In this document: piece after piece, positions 1,281 to 18,854 of the stretch
Layout of the letters: the number at the start of each line of letters is the position of its first letter
Position numbering within the stretch: position 1 is the stretch's first letter
Source of the DNA: a virus
Direction: 5' to 3' (one strand)
Length of the DNA stretch: 23,648 nt
Virus record (IMG/VR): IMGVR_UViG_3300035698_009782
Coordinates: 1 to 23,648 of that record
Position numbers and translations under genes: made by a program
Notes under the pieces: generated by a model
Databases searched by the model: none
The model's input: only the letters and a program-made list of their open reading frames with translations
What the model was told of the DNA's origin: nothing

Positions 1281-1310
1281 TTGACCTTTTTGTAGTTTGT
1301 GCGATATAAT
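1281..1310 (+). promoter_or_regulatory. Sigma70-type promoter for the noncoding RNA / tRNA region
   Basis: TTGACC (1281-1286), an 18-nt spacer, then a perfect TATAAT (1305-1310). The expected start site is near 1317. It sits just after the HAD gene and directly before the long stretch without genes, so its first product would be the candidate structured RNA and then the tRNA array. Confidence 0.75.
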
Positions 1311-1316
1311 GTAATT

Positions 1317-1960
1317 GAAGGAGTTTAGACGTGGGCTTTTTCTATGCCGTTAAGGTAAATCAAAACATGTATGGGCGTTAGAAGGTCGCAGGTAGTAGTA
1401 TATTGAGGAGGGGGTCTGGGGGACTTCTGCCTGCCGACAGCTCACATTTGGAATGGATATTTGAGTAGGGGAAACCCTTTGTACGTACCGCCTAGGACGG
1501 AATCGTCAGCTTGAATATCTTTTGGAGATGTGAATTAGCCCCACAAGGCTCTCTCCATATAATTGCGACAGCCTCTATCAGATTAAAATTTTCGTTTTTA
1601 ATAACCTGTTATAGCTGTTTGCGTAGGTTTAGCCACCTACAACCGTGTCGGCGTGATCCGATTAAGACGGCCACCCTCTCTGATAAGCTTACCCAAAGGC
1701 AAAGGGGAGACGAGGGGGTGCGTAAATAAAAGTGCAGAAGCACTGACTGTACCTTCGCTTCTGATCTGGCTAGTGCCTATAATTAAGATATAGGTTTATG
1801 GGCACTAGTTAGAAAAACTGTTCAAAACTATTACTGATGGCTTTCTGTAAGAGCAATGTAGTTAGTCTGATGTCAGTATTAGAAGTCCTATGCACCCTCG
1901 CCAGGTGGTGGGCAGAATGGTGGATAAATATTAAACAAAAAATGGCGTAATTAAGCAGTA
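1317..1960 (+). ncRNA. Candidate large structured noncoding RNA (GOLLD/ROOL-like in size and setting)
   Basis: About 640 nt with no credible ORF, between a strong promoter and a tRNA array. Clear helices: 1385-1392 with 1430-1438 (one bulged C); 1467-1470 with 1475-1478 closing a GAAA tetraloop; 1565-1572 with 1614-1622, enclosing 1582-1588 with 1596-1602; 1623-1628 with 1635-1640; 1672-1676 with 1716-1720; 1735-1741 with 1757-1763; 1770-1777 with 1801-1808 (8 bp); 1828-1837 with 1873-1882 (one mismatch). GOLLD and ROOL are large phage-associated RNAs of roughly 600-800 nt usually encoded beside tRNAs, so size and location fit. I cannot match a conserved sequence of either family. The 3' end is uncertain: no T-tract is seen before the gene at 1973. 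Confidence 0.6.
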
Positions 1961-1972
1961 AGATAACCGCAT

Positions 1973-2263
1973 ATGAATTTCAAACGCGGAAAAAAGAAAC
2001 AAAGAGGCAATCTAGATAGATGGTCTCTGTCAAAACAGGTACAAATACGAGAACTAAAAAAGGACATTCCTGATGAAATGAGGGGGAAGTCTAAGAAGAA
2101 ATCATCAGGAGCGCACAAGTACGATCATAAACACGAGTACGAAACAAAGATAAAAAGTGCTCTAAAACTTTACTATAGTCAACTAGATACTTGTAAAATT
2201 TGTGGAAAAGAAGCTAATTGGAAATTAGTAAGAAAAGACAACAAGAACAAAATAGCGGGGTAG
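1973..2263 (+). CDS. Small, very basic CxxC protein overlapping the first tRNA
   Basis: A 96-residue protein with about the first 50 residues dominated by Lys and Arg, and a single CxxC pair (C74/C77) near the C-terminus. Its stop codon falls inside the tRNA-fMet-like gene, overlapping it by about 10 nt, so the mRNA and tRNA are probably processed from one transcript. It starts at TATG with no SD. The charge suggests RNA or DNA binding; nothing more specific can be said. It resembles the 50-residue protein at 2792 in composition but does not clearly align with it. Confidence 0.6.
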   Translation: MNFKRGKKKQRGNLDRWSLSKQVQIRELKKDIPDEMRGKSKKKSSGAHKYDHKHEYETKIKSALKLYYSQLDTCKICGKEANWKLVRKDNKNKIAG

Positions 2264-2327
2264 AGCAACGGTAGTTCATCGGTCTCATAAGCCGAAGGTC
2301 TGAGTTCGATTCTCAGTCCCGCCACCA
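2254..2327 (+). tRNA. tRNA-Met(CAT), initiator-like (fMet)
   Basis: Complete cloverleaf with encoded CCA. Acceptor 2254-2260 with 2317-2323; anticodon loop CTCATAA (2284-2290) with CAT at 2286-2288; T-arm CTGAG/CTCAG. Initiator hallmarks: no Watson-Crick pair at 1:72 (A·C); A11:U24 in the D stem; anticodon stem pairs 29:41 and 30:40 are G:C, with U31·G39 as the third (most bacterial initiators have three G:C). From base 2 through the D stem and around the anticodon it looks strikingly like Escherichia coli tRNA-fMet, from memory. An elongator Met or Ile2 role is less likely. Confidence 0.8.
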
Positions 2328-2328
2328 A

Positions 2329-2405
2329 GCGCTAGTAACTCAATTGGTTAGAGCACCTGCCTTCCAAGCAGGATGTTATCGGTTCGAGCCCGATCTGGCG
2401 CTCCA
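2329..2405 (+). tRNA. tRNA-Gly(TCC)
   Basis: Acceptor GCGCTAG with CTGGCGC, anticodon stem CCTGC/GCAGG with loop CTTCCAA (anticodon TCC), T-arm ATCGG/CCGAT, discriminator T as expected for bacterial Gly, and CCA encoded. One base separates it from the previous tRNA. Confidence 0.9.
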
Positions 2406-2406
2406 T

Positions 2407-2481
2407 GATTTCGTAGCCAAGTGGTTAAGGCGGACGGTTGCAACCCGTCTATCGGAGGTTCGATTCCTCCCGAGATCTCCA
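2407..2481 (+). tRNA. tRNA-Cys(GCA)
   Basis: Acceptor GATTTCG with CGAGATC, anticodon stem GACGG/CCGTC with loop TTGCAAC (anticodon GCA), T-arm GGAGG/CCTCC, discriminator T typical of Cys, and CCA encoded. Confidence 0.9.
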
Positions 2482-2482
2482 A

Positions 2483-2559
2483 CTAGATGTAGCTCAGTAG
2501 GCTAGAGCGCGCAGTTTGGATCTGCGAGGCCGTAGGTTCAAGTCCTACCATCTAGACCA
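2483..2559 (+). tRNA. tRNA-Pro(TGG)
   Basis: Acceptor CTAGATG with CATCTAG, anticodon stem CGCAG/CTGCG with loop TTTGGAT (anticodon TGG), T-arm GTAGG/CCTAC, discriminator A and CCA encoded. Confidence 0.9.
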
Positions 2560-2634
2560 CGGAATATAGAATAACGGTTAGTTCAGCGGGTTTTCAGCCC
2601 GGAGGTTGGGGTTCGATCCCCCATATTCCGACCA
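2560..2634 (+). tRNA. tRNA-Glu(TTC)
   Basis: Acceptor CGGAATA with TATTCCG, anticodon loop TTTTCAG (anticodon TTC), T-arm TGGGG/CCCCA and CCA encoded. The outermost anticodon-stem pair (27:43) is a G·G mismatch. It directly abuts the preceding tRNA with no spacer. Confidence 0.85.
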
Positions 2635-2635
2635 A

Positions 2636-2709
2636 TTCGGGATAGTATAATGGCAGTACGCAAAGTTTTGGACTTTGCAGTCTAGGTTCGACCCCTAGTC
2701 CCGGAACCA
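2636..2709 (+). tRNA. tRNA-Gln(TTG)
   Basis: Acceptor TTCGGGA with TCCCGGA (one T·G pair at position 2), anticodon stem CAAAG/CTTTG with loop TTTTGGA (anticodon TTG), T-arm CTAGG/CCTAG, CCA encoded. Confidence 0.88.
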
Positions 2710-2710
2710 A

Positions 2711-2781
2711 GCGGGTAGATGCAAGGCGTGTGATGGTCTCCAAAACCATTAGGCTGGGAGCATTACCTAGTACCCGTGCCA
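2711..2781 (+). tRNA. tRNA-Trp(CCA) with reduced D-arm and non-canonical T-loop
   Basis: Acceptor GCGGGTA with TACCCGT (G·T at 1:72), a perfect anticodon stem ATGGT/ACCAT with loop CTCCAAA (anticodon CCA), discriminator G as expected for Trp, CCA encoded. The T-stem CTGGG/CCTAG is intact, but the T-loop is AGCATTA instead of the TTC-type loop of its neighbours. The D region folds at best as ATGC/GCGT around a 3-nt loop, with no GG. Both partners of the elbow contact are thus missing, as in some mitochondrial tRNAs. Confidence 0.75.
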
Positions 2782-2791
2782 AGAAATTTTT

Positions 2792-2944
2792 ATGAGGAAA
2801 CATTACAAAAACAAAAAGCGTTCCTGTGGGTTATGCAAACCACATAAACGAGGACGTACAAAGAGAAGTGAAGGCGATATTTCACGACTGAAAGAAGATC
2901 AACGGCTCAAAGATATTCAGGAGGATATAAAGTTCATTACCTAA
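2792..2944 (+). CDS. Small basic CxxC protein inside the tRNA array
   Basis: A 50-residue protein with a basic N-terminal half containing C12/C15 in an RSCGLCKPHKRG context, and a charged, probably helical C-terminal half. I recall small bacterial and phage proteins with a similar KKRxCxLCKPHKRG core that are conserved but uncharacterised. The charge and position suggest RNA binding; that is inference. It starts at TATG with no SD. It lies between tRNA-Trp and the Leu-like tRNA, and its stop is 3 nt before the latter. Confidence 0.7.
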   Translation: MRKHYKNKKRSCGLCKPHKRGRTKRSEGDISRLKEDQRLKDIQEDIKFIT

Positions 2945-2947
2945 TAA

Positions 2948-3025
2948 GGGCGAGTGGCGGAACTGGTATACGCAATCGCCTCAAAAGTGGTCCAATTATA
3001 GGTTCGAATCCTATCAGGTGTACCA
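2948..3025 (+). tRNA. tRNA-Leu(CAA)-like, acceptor stem does not pair
   Basis: The D-arm is Leu-type (TGGCGGAACTGGTATACGC), the anticodon loop is CTCAAAA (anticodon CAA) on a stem with two wobbles, the T-arm ATAGG/CCTAT is normal and CCA is encoded. However, acceptor GGGCGAG does not pair with CAGGTGT (three of seven positions are outright mismatches). The variable region is only about 6 nt, whereas bacterial Leu tRNAs carry a long variable arm. It may be a fusion of two tRNA halves or a decaying gene. Confidence 0.55.
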
Positions 3026-3026
3026 A

Positions 3027-3065
3027 GCATCCGTAGCCCAATTGGTAGAGGCACTGGTCTTAGGG
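3027..3065 (+). pseudogene. Truncated tRNA-Leu(TAG) 5' half
   Basis: A normal-looking 5' half: acceptor GCATCCG, D-arm GCC/GGC with a GG-containing loop, then CTGGT and a loop CTTAGGG with anticodon TAG at 3061-3063. After the anticodon the sequence runs into G-rich and then C-rich DNA; no complementary anticodon strand, T-arm or CCA follows. The gene appears broken just after its anticodon. Confidence 0.6.
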
Positions 3066-3091
3066 GGTAGCCTAACAGCGCCCCCCCCCTA
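3061..3091. repeat. G/C inverted repeat with a nine-C run
   Basis: TAGGGGG (3061-3067) is complementary to CCCCCTA (3085-3091), and the right arm contains nine consecutive Cs (3081-3089). The break in the truncated tRNA lies at its left arm. It could fold as a hairpin ending the tRNA transcript, but no T-tract follows. The homopolymer is also a likely place for a length error. Confidence 0.5.
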
Positions 3092-3120: not shown

Positions 3121-3149
3121 TTGACAAAGTACAAAAACTATACTATTCT
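3121..3149 (+). promoter_or_regulatory. Sigma70-type promoter before the structured leader
   Basis: A perfect -35 TTGACA (3121-3126), a 17-nt spacer and TATTCT (3144-3149) as -10. The predicted start is near 3156, giving a leader of about 130 nt before ATG 3288. Confidence 0.7.
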
Positions 3150-3164
3150 CATAGCCGTGAGAGG

Positions 3165-3264
3165 TAGCATTTTCCCGTCCCCTATAGGGAGCGTTCTTTA
3201 TTCCAACTCGCCGTTGATTTCCACTTGATGCGGCCGACTCGCTATGTGGGTCGGGAGGATGCTA
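3165..3264 (+). ncRNA. Structured leader or small RNA
   Basis: The ends pair as a long closing stem: TAGCAT (3165-3170) with ATGCTA (3259-3264), extended by 3171-3176 against 3253-3258 through G·T and G·C pairs. Inside are CCC-TATA-GGG (3180-3189) and a 7-bp hairpin CCGACTC/GGGTCGG (3234-3240 with 3248-3254, loop 3241-3247); the latter competes with the inner part of the closing stem at 3253-3254. A multibranched fold that can switch pairing is typical of cis-regulatory RNAs, but it matches no riboswitch class I recognise. A stand-alone RNA is also possible. Confidence 0.45.
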
Positions 3265-3287
3265 TAAACTAATAAGTAAAACATCAT

Positions 3288-3551
3288 ATGTCAGACAAAG
3301 AAACAAAAGTTATGTCCGAGCCTACATGGAGAAGCATTGCTGGTCTAGTATGTGGTATCTGTGGAATAGCACTTTTTTGGGCCTATGGCCTAGGTCAGAT
3401 ACTAGGTACATTAGGAATAATCTTTTCAGCATTGGGGGTTCAAAAGAATGAACGTCTAGCAAAAGTAGGATTGGTTTGCGGTATTATATCGTGGGCGGTA
3501 ATAATTATACCAGTCGTATTAGTATTCATAATCGTAGCGGCGTCGGCGTAA
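3288..3551 (+). CDS. Small two-pass membrane protein (DUF4190-like)
   Basis: An 87-residue protein with a short charged N-terminus, then two Gly-rich hydrophobic segments (about residues 16-47 and 58-86) separated by the basic turn QKNERLAK. This is the layout of DUF4190-type membrane proteins, whose function is unknown. It starts at TATG with no SD, behind a structured leader, and is closed by a strong terminator at 3559-3587, so it forms a single-gene transcription unit. Cytoplasmic-membrane location is inferred. Confidence 0.65.
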   Translation: MSDKETKVMSEPTWRSIAGLVCGICGIALFWAYGLGQILGTLGIIFSALGVQKNERLAKVGLVCGIISWAVIIIPVVLVFIIVAASA

Positions 3552-7879: not shown

Positions 7880-8443
7880 ATTAGTAAGCAAAAGTGTATA
7901 GCATCTAGGAGACTAGAATTCGACATGGGTCACAGAGTCCCTAATCATGCGTCAAAATGTTTCAACGTGCACGGGCATAGATATGTAGCCATCATTGAGG
8001 TAGAGGCCACTCTAGTAGAAGAGGAAGGGCACGCTTCAGAGGGTATGGTCATGGACTTCGGTGATATTAAAAAGTACCTAGGCAGATTTATTGACACGTA
8101 CATGGATCACGGCTACATGGGACACAAAGACTACGACAAAGAACTTTTAGAAAAACTGCACAAAGATGACATGAAACACATTTCAACGTCTTTTGTGCCA
8201 ACAGCAGAAAATATAGCATTATGGTTATTCAAAATAGCAATGGAGCAATTGGAAAGTAATAAACAGGAGAGCCAAAGCTATTTTGAAGTAAAGTCAATTA
8301 AGCTATACGAAACGCCTAATTGTTACGCTTTAGTATCTAGAGAAAATGCTTTAGAAGCTTTCGGTCAACCAGACATAGAATTGGATGTGAGTCTTTACGA
8401 CCCAGCACACGCTATAGGCCTAGACGGCAAGACTAGTCGCTAA
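7880..8443 (+). CDS. queD: QueD, 6-carboxy-5,6,7,8-tetrahydropterin synthase (non-ATG start likely)
   Basis: QueD/PTPS-family enzyme, second step of 7-deazaguanine (preQ0) synthesis: dihydroneopterin triphosphate to 6-carboxytetrahydropterin. Zinc ligands are H18 (in MGHRV) and H31/H33 (HGH), with nucleophile C27 (KCFNVHGHRY); numbering is from 7880. ATG 7925 lies inside the first conserved strand (FD-M-GHRV, where relatives have Ala or similar) and would remove it. The frame is open upstream as IASRRLEFD but contains no ATG, GTG or TTG. ATT 7880 (preceded by T) is my provisional start; ATA 7898 or ATT 7865 are alternatives. The enzyme probably serves modification of phage DNA or tRNA, together with QueE. 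Confidence 0.8.
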   Translation: MSKQKCIASRRLEFDMGHRVPNHASKCFNVHGHRYVAIIEVEATLVEEEGHASEGMVMDFGDIKKYLGRFIDTYMDHGYMGHKDYDKELLEKLHKDDMKHISTSFVPTAENIALWLFKIAMEQLESNKQESQSYFEVKSIKLYETPNCYALVSRENALEAFGQPDIELDVSLYDPAHAIGLDGKTSR

Positions 8444-8937: not shown

Positions 8938-9675
8938 ATGACCATTCGAGTATGTGAGATGTTCGTTTCGCTTCAGGGCGAAGGCCCGACCACCGGCACC
9001 AAGTCCCTGTTCGTCAGGCTCTCGGGCTGTAACCTGCGCTGCATCTGGTGCGACACCCCGTACACCTGGTACTTCAAAGGCCAAGAGTACAAGGACATGC
9101 CACCGAACAGCATGGAGAAGTTCGACCAGACCGCTGAGACCGCCGAGTACAACAAGCTCAAGTTCGTCGACCAAGTACTCTGGCACGCTGGAGACGTTCG
9201 ACATATTGTCCTGACTGGTGGAGAGCCTATGCTTCAGTGGCGCGCGCTCAAGAGTGCACTGCCCCTGCTCCAGCACTACGGCTTCACCTTTGAGCTCGAG
9301 ACCAATGGTACGATCCCGCTGGACACCGAGTTCGGAGCGATGTTCACCCAAGTGAACTGCTCGCCGAAGATTTGGATGAGTGGTAACAGGCGCAACACGT
9401 TCTACCCAGAAGCCCTACGCTCTATCATGGAGCATGAGGCTTACTGCTTCAAGATCGTGACTATGTGCGATGCGTCGACTCTCACCAAGATCGAGAGGTT
9501 CGTTGAGGCTATGGGTATTCCGCCGGAACGCGTGTTCATCATGCCCGAGGGCGTGACTATCGAGTCCCAGCAGATGCCTAAGATCGGACGACATGTTGCC
9601 TTCTGTGAGCGTAACGGGTTTGTTCTCTCACTTCGTCAGCACATCATTGACTACGGAAACGCACGAGGCGTGTAG
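8938..9675 (+). CDS. queE: QueE, 7-carboxy-7-deazaguanine synthase (radical SAM)
   Basis: A 245-residue radical-SAM enzyme converting 6-carboxytetrahydropterin to 7-carboxy-7-deazaguanine. The N-terminal SLQGEGPTTG matches QueE; the 4Fe-4S cluster ligands are C31, C35 and C38 (CNLRCIWCD), and the SAM-binding strand has TGGEP (93-97). With QueD it covers two of the four preQ0 steps; FolE and QueC would have to come from the host or elsewhere in the phage. Codon use is GC-richer (third-position C/G) than its flanks and it has a canonical SD, so it was probably acquired from another phage or a bacterium. Confidence 0.93.
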   Translation: MTIRVCEMFVSLQGEGPTTGTKSLFVRLSGCNLRCIWCDTPYTWYFKGQEYKDMPPNSMEKFDQTAETAEYNKLKFVDQVLWHAGDVRHIVLTGGEPMLQWRALKSALPLLQHYGFTFELETNGTIPLDTEFGAMFTQVNCSPKIWMSGNRRNTFYPEALRSIMEHEAYCFKIVTMCDASTLTKIERFVEAMGIPPERVFIMPEGVTIESQQMPKIGRHVAFCERNGFVLSLRQHIIDYGNARGV

Positions 9676-10342: not shown

Positions 10343-12202
10343 ATGTCTGAAATACTAATAGAACCACCAAGCTTTACCGATCACTTGAGCCAGCCTTTAC
10401 TAGAGGCTACACGAGCAGTTTTAAAGGAGGCAAAAAATCCACTAGATTTAATATACTATAAAGACTGGCTGGAGAACCCAGCTAAGTGGCGCTACCCAAT
10501 GGTATCATTTGATACTTTTATTGATTCGAAAACATATTTAGGACAGGGTGAATTCGTATACCCAGAAATTAGAAAAGTGGCTAAAGGTATTTTAGAGGGC
10601 AAGTATCCCGAAGCCGTTATCATGGCGGGTATTGGTTCTGGTAAAACAACATCGGCCGAGCTTATAGAATGTTACTTAACGCACAAGATACTTTGCCTGC
10701 GAGACCCTTACAGACAGTTTCAACTAGCAAAAGACAAACCAATAGCCATGATTAACATGGGTATAAACGCAACACAGGCGTTGAAGGTAGCCTTTGAAGG
10801 AGTTAAGACCTTTATAAGTGGTAGCCCTTGGTTTAAGCATTTCAACCCAAAAATTATAGCTGGTGAGATTCTTTTTAAAAAAGAAAACATCTTGCTCATT
10901 TCAGGAAACAGTAAATCTACAACCCCACTTGGATACAACATCTTTTTTGCTGTTCTGGATGAGGCCGCTTTTTATTTAGATACAGACAACAGACAGGTAG
11001 CTGAAGAAATCTACACAGCACTGCAACGACGTATCGTTTCCCGTTTCGGTTACGAGGGACTGTCGATGATTATCTCATCACCTTTGTATGAGGGTGACTT
11101 CGTGATGACAAAGTTAGAGGAAGCTAAAACACAGTTCTCGGAACAAGTGTACAGCTGTCAGTTGCCTACGTGGAAAGGAAAACCAATAGAAAAAGCGGAC
11201 ATGGCTAATAAGTTCTATTTTAACAATAGAACAGGTACTGTATTAGACGAAAAACCAGCAGACGATACTGACATATCATTTGTGGCCGACGACTTCGATG
11301 CTAACAAGTCAGTATGGGAGATTCCTGGGGAATATAAGAAATCCTTTCTACAAGACCCAGATAGAGCAAAGAGAGACCTTGCTGGTATCCCGTCAGGCTC
11401 AATACAAGCCTATATGCCACGCACAGACAAGATAAACGAACTCTTTACCACAGATCCATCTCCAATCGTTAAGGGGGCCTATTCAGGGCTAGAGAAGCCA
11501 CTTAGAACGAATTATTATATACATTTGGACCTTGCTTTGAATAAACAGAAAAATGGAAAGGATTGTGGAGACTTTGCGGGTATGGCTATGGCTCGATTCG
11601 ATGGCTGGATACAGGACGAGGAAACAGACGAAAGGCAGAAGACAGCAAAGATAGTTTTAGCGGAACAAATAGGGGCAGGACCTACAGGAGAAATCAACTT
11701 CTCAGATGTGAGAAATAAGATTTACACACTACGAAAAATGGGCTTTAATATAAAGCTTGTAACAATGGATCAATTCCAAAGTGCCGACACAAAGCAAATA
11801 CTGAGAGCCAAGGGCATAAGGTCTGACCTTTTATCAGTGGACAGAACAACTGAACCATACGACACATTCAAGGAAATGATATATTCAGATCGTGTCACAT
11901 GTCACGAGATGCCCGTATTAAAAAAGGAGCTATCACAGCTAGAGATAACCAAGTCGTCTAAAATAGATCACCCTCCAAAGGGAAGCAAGGACGTAGCTGA
12001 TGCGTGTTGTGGTGCTGTGTTTAATGTTATTATGAATACGACAAACTCAACGCTAGGAATGGCTGTAGGCGATTTAAGTCATGCTCATATTCCAGGTCAG
12101 GTACCAATCACTGAACAACAAAAACGGGAGAAGGACGCTAGAGAAAAAGAAGAGAATTATAGGGTACTAGACGACATGGCTCGGGACGGCTTATTTGACT
12201 AA
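10343..12202 (+). CDS. terL: Terminase large subunit (packaging ATPase/nuclease)
   Basis: A 619-residue packaging motor. Walker A is GIGSGKTT (about residues 96-103) and Walker B with catalytic Glu is AVLDEAAF (about 205-212). The C-terminal nuclease half has acidic residues in YIHLDLALN and in the terminal DVADACCGAV segment, as in RNase H-like terminase nucleases. Length is within the usual 420-660 range. It translocates DNA into the prohead through the portal at 12491. The start follows the preceding stop after one base (TAG-T-ATG). Confidence 0.93.
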   Translation: MSEILIEPPSFTDHLSQPLLEATRAVLKEAKNPLDLIYYKDWLENPAKWRYPMVSFDTFIDSKTYLGQGEFVYPEIRKVAKGILEGKYPEAVIMAGIGSGKTTSAELIECYLTHKILCLRDPYRQFQLAKDKPIAMINMGINATQALKVAFEGVKTFISGSPWFKHFNPKIIAGEILFKKENILLISGNSKSTTPLGYNIFFAVLDEAAFYLDTDNRQVAEEIYTALQRRIVSRFGYEGLSMIISSPLYEGDFVMTKLEEAKTQFSEQVYSCQLPTWKGKPIEKADMANKFYFNNRTGTVLDEKPADDTDISFVADDFDANKSVWEIPGEYKKSFLQDPDRAKRDLAGIPSGSIQAYMPRTDKINELFTTDPSPIVKGAYSGLEKPLRTNYYIHLDLALNKQKNGKDCGDFAGMAMARFDGWIQDEETDERQKTAKIVLAEQIGAGPTGEINFSDVRNKIYTLRKMGFNIKLVTMDQFQSADTKQILRAKGIRSDLLSVDRTTEPYDTFKEMIYSDRVTCHEMPVLKKELSQLEITKSSKIDHPPKGSKDVADACCGAVFNVIMNTTNSTLGMAVGDLSHAHIPGQVPITEQQKREKDAREKEENYRVLDDMARDGLFD

Positions 12203-12490: not shown

Positions 12491-13891
12491 ATGGATAATG
12501 AAAACAACAAGGGTGTTGTGCAACGCGCAATAAACCCTTTACTAGATCGTTTGGGCTACGTGGAAAAGTCTAAAGCAATTGCAGCTGCAACTCCGGGGCA
12601 GTTCCAAAACTTTGACCAACGGCCAGGAACAGACTACACGAAGAAAGATAAGGGAATGCATAAACCATCAAATGTATCATTTGAGTTCCTACGAAGGATA
12701 GCTAGGGTAGATGCTTTAACGCGAATTTGTGTAAACACGATTAAGAAATCAGTGTCACAATCAGAGTGGGATATTGTTCCAAGAAAGGGTCATGAAAAAA
12801 ATACAAAACATATAGAAGAGGTTAACGACCTTTTCATGTTTGTAAATTCAAGTGGTGAAAACCTACGTGTTCTTTTAGACCGAGTGCTAGAAGATCTTTT
12901 GGTTTTAGACGCAGGAGTTATTGAAAAAATATTCAACGCTAAAGACGAGCTAGTAGAAATAAACTCAGTCGATGGTGCGACTATAAGACCTAGATTTAAC
13001 CAGTACGGAGAATTCGATCATGACTTCTCTTACGCTCAAGTTATAGATAATGAGGTGGTAGCAAAATTTGCGTTGAAAGAGGTTATCTACATGATGCAAA
13101 ACCCACAGAGCGACATTAAGGCTTACGGGTATGGTATGGCTCCAATCGAGTCAATCCTATTGGCAGTACAATCTTCTTTAAACGCTGACCTATACAACGC
13201 TCAATCATTCTCAGAGGACAACATTCCACCGGGAATGATCGACCTAGGAGACATGCCTGAATCAGAGGCACAGAACTTTATCAGAATGTGGAACGCTACT
13301 GTCCAAGGAAACACGCAGAAGATGAAATTCGTTTATGGAGGAAACTCAGCTCATCGTTATCTGCCTTTCAAGGGGAACAACAAAGACATGCAATTCGTCG
13401 AATACACGGATTGGCTATCACGAGTTAAACTCGCTGCATTTGGTTTGTCTACTCTAGACGCTAATATCCTTCAGGACGTAAACAGAGCTACAGCAGAGGT
13501 GCAGTATCAAATTACACAGTCCCGTGGTGTTCGAAGTACCAAACGAGCTGTAGAGGAATACTTTAACAGAGAGATCGTTTTAGCGACTGGATACGAAGAT
13601 GTAGTCTTCAAGTTCCAAGAGGCTACAAGTCTTACCGAGAAAAAGAAGCAAGCGGATATAGATAAAATTTATATTGATACAGGAGTACAAACTCCAAGAG
13701 ATATTGCTGAAAGAGAGGGATTTGATTACGACGAAGCAGACGACTTGGACGACGACTTAGATGAACCAGCAGAAGGAATGGGTACTGACCCAACACCAAA
13801 AGAAGGTGAAGGAATAGATGGCGACGGGGACGCTTTGGAATCGAAAAAAAGCGTGCGTAAAAACTCTAAGCATTGGAAGCCTATCTACTAA
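12491..13891 (+). CDS. Portal protein
   Basis: A 466-residue portal, identified by position after terL, length and recognisable segments: the N-terminal RIARVDALTRICVNTIKKS region, the helical NADLYNAQSFSEDNIPPGM segment, a central wing-and-stem region, and an acidic, disordered C-terminus (about residues 410-455). It forms the twelve-subunit ring at the head vertex through which DNA passes. It starts at TATG. Its stop is 2 nt before the next gene, a minor head protein, as in SPP1- and Mu-like phages. Confidence 0.85.
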   Translation: MDNENNKGVVQRAINPLLDRLGYVEKSKAIAAATPGQFQNFDQRPGTDYTKKDKGMHKPSNVSFEFLRRIARVDALTRICVNTIKKSVSQSEWDIVPRKGHEKNTKHIEEVNDLFMFVNSSGENLRVLLDRVLEDLLVLDAGVIEKIFNAKDELVEINSVDGATIRPRFNQYGEFDHDFSYAQVIDNEVVAKFALKEVIYMMQNPQSDIKAYGYGMAPIESILLAVQSSLNADLYNAQSFSEDNIPPGMIDLGDMPESEAQNFIRMWNATVQGNTQKMKFVYGGNSAHRYLPFKGNNKDMQFVEYTDWLSRVKLAAFGLSTLDANILQDVNRATAEVQYQITQSRGVRSTKRAVEEYFNREIVLATGYEDVVFKFQEATSLTEKKKQADIDKIYIDTGVQTPRDIAEREGFDYDEADDLDDDLDEPAEGMGTDPTPKEGEGIDGDGDALESKKSVRKNSKHWKPIY

Positions 13892-17885: not shown

Positions 17886-18854
17886 ATGGATTTCTTAGAA
17901 AAGACATTACAGAAGGTGGAGAAGACTTTGTCAACTCCAGCTTATACAAACCCGTCTACACTTACTTTGGTACGTGAAAACCTATCAAGCTATGTAGACC
18001 GTCTCGATTCACGCGAGACACCACTACGTGATCGTATTGCACGAAAACAAGGTAGTGGACTAGCTGCATCATGGAACTTGATGACAGCTGTAGGATCAAG
18101 TACACCTGCATTTACTGAGGGAGGTACACCTACTGAGGACGCAACAAGCTACGCTCGTCGTTCTGCTGTTTACAAAGAGCTTGGTAAAACAAAGTCTATC
18201 ACCGACAAGATGATTGCCGCTGGTGCGAGTTTTACAGATATTGAAGCTATTGAAACAGAAGCAGCAATGAGAGAAGTTTTACTAGGAGAAGAAAGCCTGA
18301 TTGTTACTGGAGACAGTGGAGCAGTAGCAACACAGTTCGATGGTCTTGATACTTATATCACTACCAACATTACTGATGACGCTAACAACGCTCTTGGTTT
18401 CCGAACAGACCTATTAGACGCAGAGATTTCTACATTACTAAATAGCTATGGTGTTATGCCAACAGCTATCTACACTTCATATGGAATGAAGCGTGCTATC
18501 AACCAGTCTTTGGCCGGTGATGTACGAATCAACCTTGACCAGACTAATACTGTGTCAACTGGAGTAGAGATCGGATTCTATCAATCAATGATTGGTAAAC
18601 TTCCTTTCGTAGCATCTCATGCTATTGCTGACGACGCTACAACTTACCCAGGTAACACTGTTGGTGACTTGTACGTTGTTACAGAGCGAACACGAGGTCA
18701 GGAGAACATTTACATGGAAGATCTTTATGGTCTCGGTAAAGGTATGCTTGACAGAACAGGAGCTGCTATCAAGTTCATGGTTACTGAGGCTACAGTACTA
18801 GTTGTACGAGCCGAGGAATTCCAGAGCAAGATCAGTAATGTTCGACTCGCCTAA
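17886..18854 (+). CDS. Major capsid protein (HK97 fold)
   Basis: A 322-residue capsid protein directly after the protease-scaffold gene. The N-terminal helix (about residues 1-20) could be a delta-domain remnant or N-arm. The body has the HK97-like pattern: a Ser/Thr/Gly-rich E-loop (SSTPAFTEGGTPTEDATSYARR), the spine helix region EAIETEAAMREVLLGEESL, and A-domain strands to the C-terminus. Codon use here is the most regular in the window, as expected for the most abundant protein. It starts at TATG. Confidence 0.88.
   Translation: MDFLEKTLQKVEKTLSTPAYTNPSTLTLVRENLSSYVDRLDSRETPLRDRIARKQGSGLAASWNLMTAVGSSTPAFTEGGTPTEDATSYARRSAVYKELGKTKSITDKMIAAGASFTDIEAIETEAAMREVLLGEESLIVTGDSGAVATQFDGLDTYITTNITDDANNALGFRTDLLDAEISTLLNSYGVMPTAIYTSYGMKRAINQSLAGDVRINLDQTNTVSTGVEIGFYQSMIGKLPFVASHAIADDATTYPGNTVGDLYVVTERTRGQENIYMEDLYGLGKGMLDRTGAAIKFMVTEATVLVVRAEEFQSKISNVRLA

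Follow-up and report, generated by a model that had tools for sequence, protein, structure and literature searches.

Which molecule, if any, is specified by the long stretch without a gene that lies between a promoter and a tRNA array in a phage contig, and does it belong with the large phage RNAs GOLLD and ROOL? These two RNAs are unrelated to each other, form hollow cages, both lie near phage tRNA islands, and are of unknown function; the ROOL cage is octameric and the GOLLD cage is a 14-mer. The window, that is, the whole stretch of DNA analyzed here, covers positions 1 to 23,648 of the 23,648-bp IMG/VR virus record IMGVR_UViG_3300035698_009782. Judged by its sequence, this contig comes from an uncultured tailed phage, a virus of bacteria, with genes for a terminase (10343-12202), a portal protein (12491-13891) and an SU10-like major capsid protein (17886-18854). 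The nearest terminases are only about 57-59% identical to that of the contig, and by this measure the phage is therefore without near kin in the searched collections. A terminase profile searched against GTDB genomes found no relative, so no host was assigned. A PTPS-family (QueD-like) gene (7925-8443) and a radical-SAM (QueE-like) gene (8938-9675), both kept in several terminase relatives, probably constitute a deazaguanine modification set for DNA or tRNA.

The gene-free gap extends from 1262 to 1972 (711 nt) inside an otherwise gene-dense contig, and no longer gap free of both genes and tRNAs is present in the whole 23.6 kb. It is flanked by a small HAD-family gene upstream (971-1261) and by a 96-aa ORF with a CxxC motif downstream (1973-2263, + strand; coding score +0.12), for which a search found no relatives. 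Within 1301-1972, reading frames of at least 30 codons score between -0.24 and +0.03 bits/codon, including the longest one (1496-1726, 77 codons, -0.22); the one exception is a 30-codon minus-strand frame at +0.20 bits/codon that is otherwise unsupported. By comparison, the training genes of the contig score from +0.03 to +0.37 bits/codon. Translation of the gap in six frames gave no Pfam match, and a decayed protein gene was rejected on this ground. Thus, the coding scores, the six-frame Pfam search and the exceptional length of the gap bear out the original prediction of about 640 nt without a credible gene. A replication origin was rejected as well (a single 11-nt repeat pair, no skew change and no DnaA-box cluster).

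The excellent promoter that had been claimed in front of the RNA is present on the + strand at 1281-1310, where a sigma-70-type site (TTGACC-18-TATAAT) agrees with the consensus at 11/12 positions; a + strand scan of the 23.6 kb found no other site with 11/12 matches. From the usual 6-8 nt spacing, transcription is predicted to start at about 1316-1318, which coincides with an 11-bp hairpin at 1317. No intrinsic terminator was found on the + strand between the candidate RNA and the tRNAs. At the normal threshold, the tRNA array (2254-3040, + strand) contains genes for six tRNAs (Met, Gly, Cys, Pro, Glu and Gln), and two further ones appear at a relaxed threshold (Trp, 2711-2781; Leu, 2948-3040). 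These genes had been expected immediately downstream of the RNA; they are near it but do not adjoin it, as the 96-aa ORF intervenes before the first tRNA at 2254. A ninth tRNA is represented by its 5' part only (GCATCCGTAGCCCAATTGGTAGAGG..., 3018-3085), with the 3' half missing and a nine-C run following; either the tRNA is broken or an error was made in sequencing or assembly. A tRNA with an intron was rejected because ARAGORN, allowing introns of 0-800 nt, adds no tRNA around the region, and no credible tRNA remains were found in the gap.

On the + strand, a total of 15 helices whose pair probabilities average 0.8 or more are predicted in the candidate RNA, where at least eight had been proposed. 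The 5' end forms the 11-bp hairpin GAAGGAGUUUA/UGGGCUUUUUC (1317-1342; pair probability 0.98, z -3.1), and the RNA body (1343-1949) is closed by a 9-bp helix, 1343-1351/1941-1949 (mean p 0.94); 6/100 shuffles are likewise closed by a helix of 9 bp or more, so that this helix is weak evidence alone and could have arisen by chance. Inside the body, a domain of nested helices (1407-1556) consists of 1407-1425/1537-1556, 1442-1449/1526-1533 and 1455-1466/1509-1520 (mean p 0.91-0.99), of which the sub-stretch 1440-1535 has a z of -3.2. It holds an AGGG-GAAA-CCCT hairpin evident in the sequence (1467-1478; p 0.87), whose GAAA loop (1471-1474) is the GNRA tetraloop noted originally. The domain is followed by a long interrupted hairpin, GCGACAGC...GCUGUUUGC with AUUAAAA/UUUUAAU (1565-1622; p 0.80-0.93, z -2.6), by two neighboring hairpins, GUAGGU/ACCUAC and CCGU-GUCGG/CCGAU-ACGG (1623-1670; p 0.91-0.98), and by the hairpin CCACCCUCUC/GAGGGGGUGCG (1671-1722; p 0.86). 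The most striking element is a hairpin at 1765-1813 with 18 uninterrupted base pairs, G-U pairs included, whose stability (z -6.5) was reached in 0/200 shuffles and whose helix length was reached by the longest helix in 0/100 shuffles. Near the 3' end lies a hairpin formed by UAUGCACC/GGUGGAUA around CUCGCC/GGUGGG (1889-1926; p 0.66-0.82).

As a whole, the + strand of the candidate (about 1317-1950) folds with a minimum free energy of -203.8 kcal/mol and a z of -2.8, about -3.3 or -4.2, a spread that reflects the chosen ends and the shuffle sample; 0-1/100 shuffles were equally good. The - strand is weaker (z -1.5 to -2.2, with 4/60 and 9/100 shuffles equally good). Confidently paired bases make up 31% of the candidate vs 16% of shuffles, 4/100 of which equal it, and most of its 150-nt windows show ordinary folding. 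As several windows inside ordinary coding genes of the same contig reach z values of -3 to -5, the folding energy is supportive rather than diagnostic. Three genuine ROOL RNAs recovered from phages EFDG1, Lb338-1 and LP65 served as a yardstick. Their RNA strands have z values of -3.1, -4.2 and -1.2, respectively, with weaker opposite strands, and their longest helices measure 15, 19 and 10 bp. The candidate (z -2.8 to -4.2, longest helix 18 bp) lies inside this ROOL range (z -1.2 to -4.2) or at its strongly folded extreme and is similar in helix length (10-19 bp in ROOL).

We compared the candidate with known RNA classes. Rfam 15 at gathering thresholds returned tRNAs only, and at E<=10 the region 900-2400 gave no large-RNA family, only a few weak matches at chance level. 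For the window alone, neither the ROOL model RF03087 nor the GOLLD model RF02032, which describes the conserved 3' region, gave a match at E<=10. The ROOL model detected the full-length ROOLs of EFDG1, Lb338-1 and LP65 with E values of 1e-29 to 1e-61; the GOLLD model lacked a positive control among the phages tested, and the GOLLD negative is weaker for this reason, its sensitivity not being demonstrated. The same two models matched none of the 40 virus records with relatives of the HAD gene. RNase P, tmRNA, group I and II introns, ribozymes, 6S and OLE RNAs were rejected in the absence of an Rfam 15 match; 'GGCAGAA' near the 3' end recalls RNase P, and AAGATATAG and GTTCAAAACTA resemble catalytic-core elements of group I introns but stand in the wrong order.

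The likenesses to ROOL and GOLLD are those of setting and build. ROOL is likewise encoded in phage genomes, is about 575-590 nt long and lies among or beside tRNA genes, as do the ROOLs of the control phages; it shares no common sequence that we could find with the candidate. GOLLD is a phage or prophage RNA that adjoins tRNAs, as the candidate lies near an island starting at 2254, but many GOLLDs exceed 800 nt (PMC12286853). Other long phage RNAs have been likened to these two on the grounds of size, location or abundance: phage K has two unclassified lncRNAs near tRNAs, whose location and abundance prompted a comparison with GOLLD and ROOL (PMC9241854), and the Vibrio phage ICP1 has an unclassified RNA of about 800 nt (PMC7567579). 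They resemble the candidate as large phage RNAs, those of phage K also in adjoining tRNA genes, and differ from it in having been seen in RNA-seq (PMC9241854, PMC7567579). The phage K and ICP1 records are matched by neither the ROOL nor the GOLLD model, and comparing them with the candidate yielded nothing past chance matches of 14-17 nt.

Relatives of the candidate were sought by several routes. Low-stringency blastn against phages and plasmids gave only chance matches of about 30 nt. No relative was found by searching IMG/VR via the flanking genes, in the whole records of 24 terminase relatives, or by blastn and nhmmer comparison of 75 loci with relatives of the HAD gene. A scan for the motif ACCCAAAGGCAAAGG, which reads PKGKG in one frame, found 119 stretches; of the ones examined, almost all fell inside long open frames, and no match could be extended. 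In the whole collections, GGTTTAGCCACCNNNAACCG had 0 matches and GGGGAAACCCTTTGTA had 23, of which 0 were extended; GTGGGCAGAATGGTGGAT had nine in GTDB genomes, the best one inside a coding frame. A single-sequence covariance model of the central hairpins (1564-1722) recovered only itself from about 1 Mb. Because the phage is without near kin and the searched collections may omit near-identical records, the lack of homologues is weak evidence against function.

The original prediction of a large structured RNA candidate is thus upheld by the gap, the promoter, the strand-biased folding and the tRNA setting, while its proposed membership in GOLLD or ROOL is not. We see about an even chance that the locus encodes an orphan, stand-alone, large structured noncoding RNA of about 630 nt that works in a GOLLD/ROOL-like manner and is a member of neither. 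The gap, a promoter placed at the first hairpin, the + strand fold, the 18-bp hairpin, a stability in the ROOL range and the precedents of phage K and ICP1 speak for such an RNA; the absence of a homologue, the unspecific stability, the mostly ordinary 150-nt windows, a closing helix that chance could produce and the intervening 96-aa ORF speak against it. A highly divergent GOLLD or ROOL beyond the reach of the Rfam models would fit the size and setting as well, but with both models negative at E<=10 and the ROOL model so sensitive on its controls (GOLLD being without one), we regard it as highly improbable, and the suggestion of a divergent member did not find support. It is unlikely, though conceivable, that the structure is the long 5' leader of a tRNA operon, in which a single transcript from 1316 would span the 96-aa ORF and the tRNAs and have its leader cut off and either discarded or used to aid processing, without any independent existence. 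The shared strand, the single promoter and the lack of a detected + strand intrinsic terminator before the tRNAs agree with this; a length of 630 nt, a hairpin at the very 5' end and ROOL-like stability are not required of a leader.

Phage tRNA arrays turn over rapidly, and the stretch could instead be decayed or transitional DNA left by lost genes or tRNAs beside a recombination-prone array, folding by chance. The broken tRNA that ends this array (3018-3085) would suit such a history, as would the failure to find conservation and an energy no better than that of some coding windows. We nevertheless hold it to be rather unlikely, as the six frames carry no protein remains, no credible tRNA remains were found, and the strand-biased fold, the 18-bp hairpin and the promoter are still in place.

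If a stand-alone RNA is made, it would be transcribed from its own sigma-70-type promoter, from 1317 to about 1950 on the + strand, and transcription would probably extend across the 96-aa ORF and on into the tRNA genes, since no terminator was found before the tRNAs. Nucleases would then release the RNA from the longer transcript, and the 5' hairpin together with the helix joining the ends may shield it against decay. Its size, stability and position beside tRNAs, which are comparable to those of GOLLD and ROOL, suggest by analogy that such an RNA would be abundant, would fold by itself and would serve during infection as a physical object (a scaffold, a container or a binder of tRNAs or ribosomes) rather than as a message or an antisense RNA. 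Tentatively, and with more doubt than confidence, it could be the first member of a previously unrecognized class of large ornate phage RNAs that have no sequence relationship to GOLLD and ROOL, do a job of the same kind by the tRNA array and possibly form a multimeric particle; no homologue, and hence no covariation, was found for it. According to published structures, GOLLD and ROOL are unrelated and each form cages (PMC12286853), so convergence on cages is possible; for the candidate, whose sequence argues neither for nor against a multimeric cage, a cage is speculative, and so are assembly and any cargo. If this is true, a third unrelated RNA of equal size and place would point to a convergent need common to phages with tRNA arrays and would offer one more molecule for seeking that need; a single orphan sequence is a lead only.

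Several other elements were seen in the window and in related records. A second structured element at 3121-3283, for which Rfam gave no match above chance, has a TTGACA-17-TATTCT promoter followed by 134 nt with a z of -3.9 and a 12-bp stem; it directly precedes an 87-aa membrane-protein ORF (3288-3551) and may represent a small RNA or a leader. The terminase frames of two relatives, L002:7255-11166 (1303 aa) and L004:8675-11608 (977 aa), are much longer than that of the contig (619 aa) and match it partially, in a way that resembles an intein or a fusion. At L017:3229-3480, tRNA-like pieces with unusual spacing are rejected by ARAGORN whether or not introns are allowed. Finally, in another phage, which carries a related HAD gene, a non-coding stretch of roughly 240 nt with visible inverted repeats lies within the tRNA array (L039:8780-9015).
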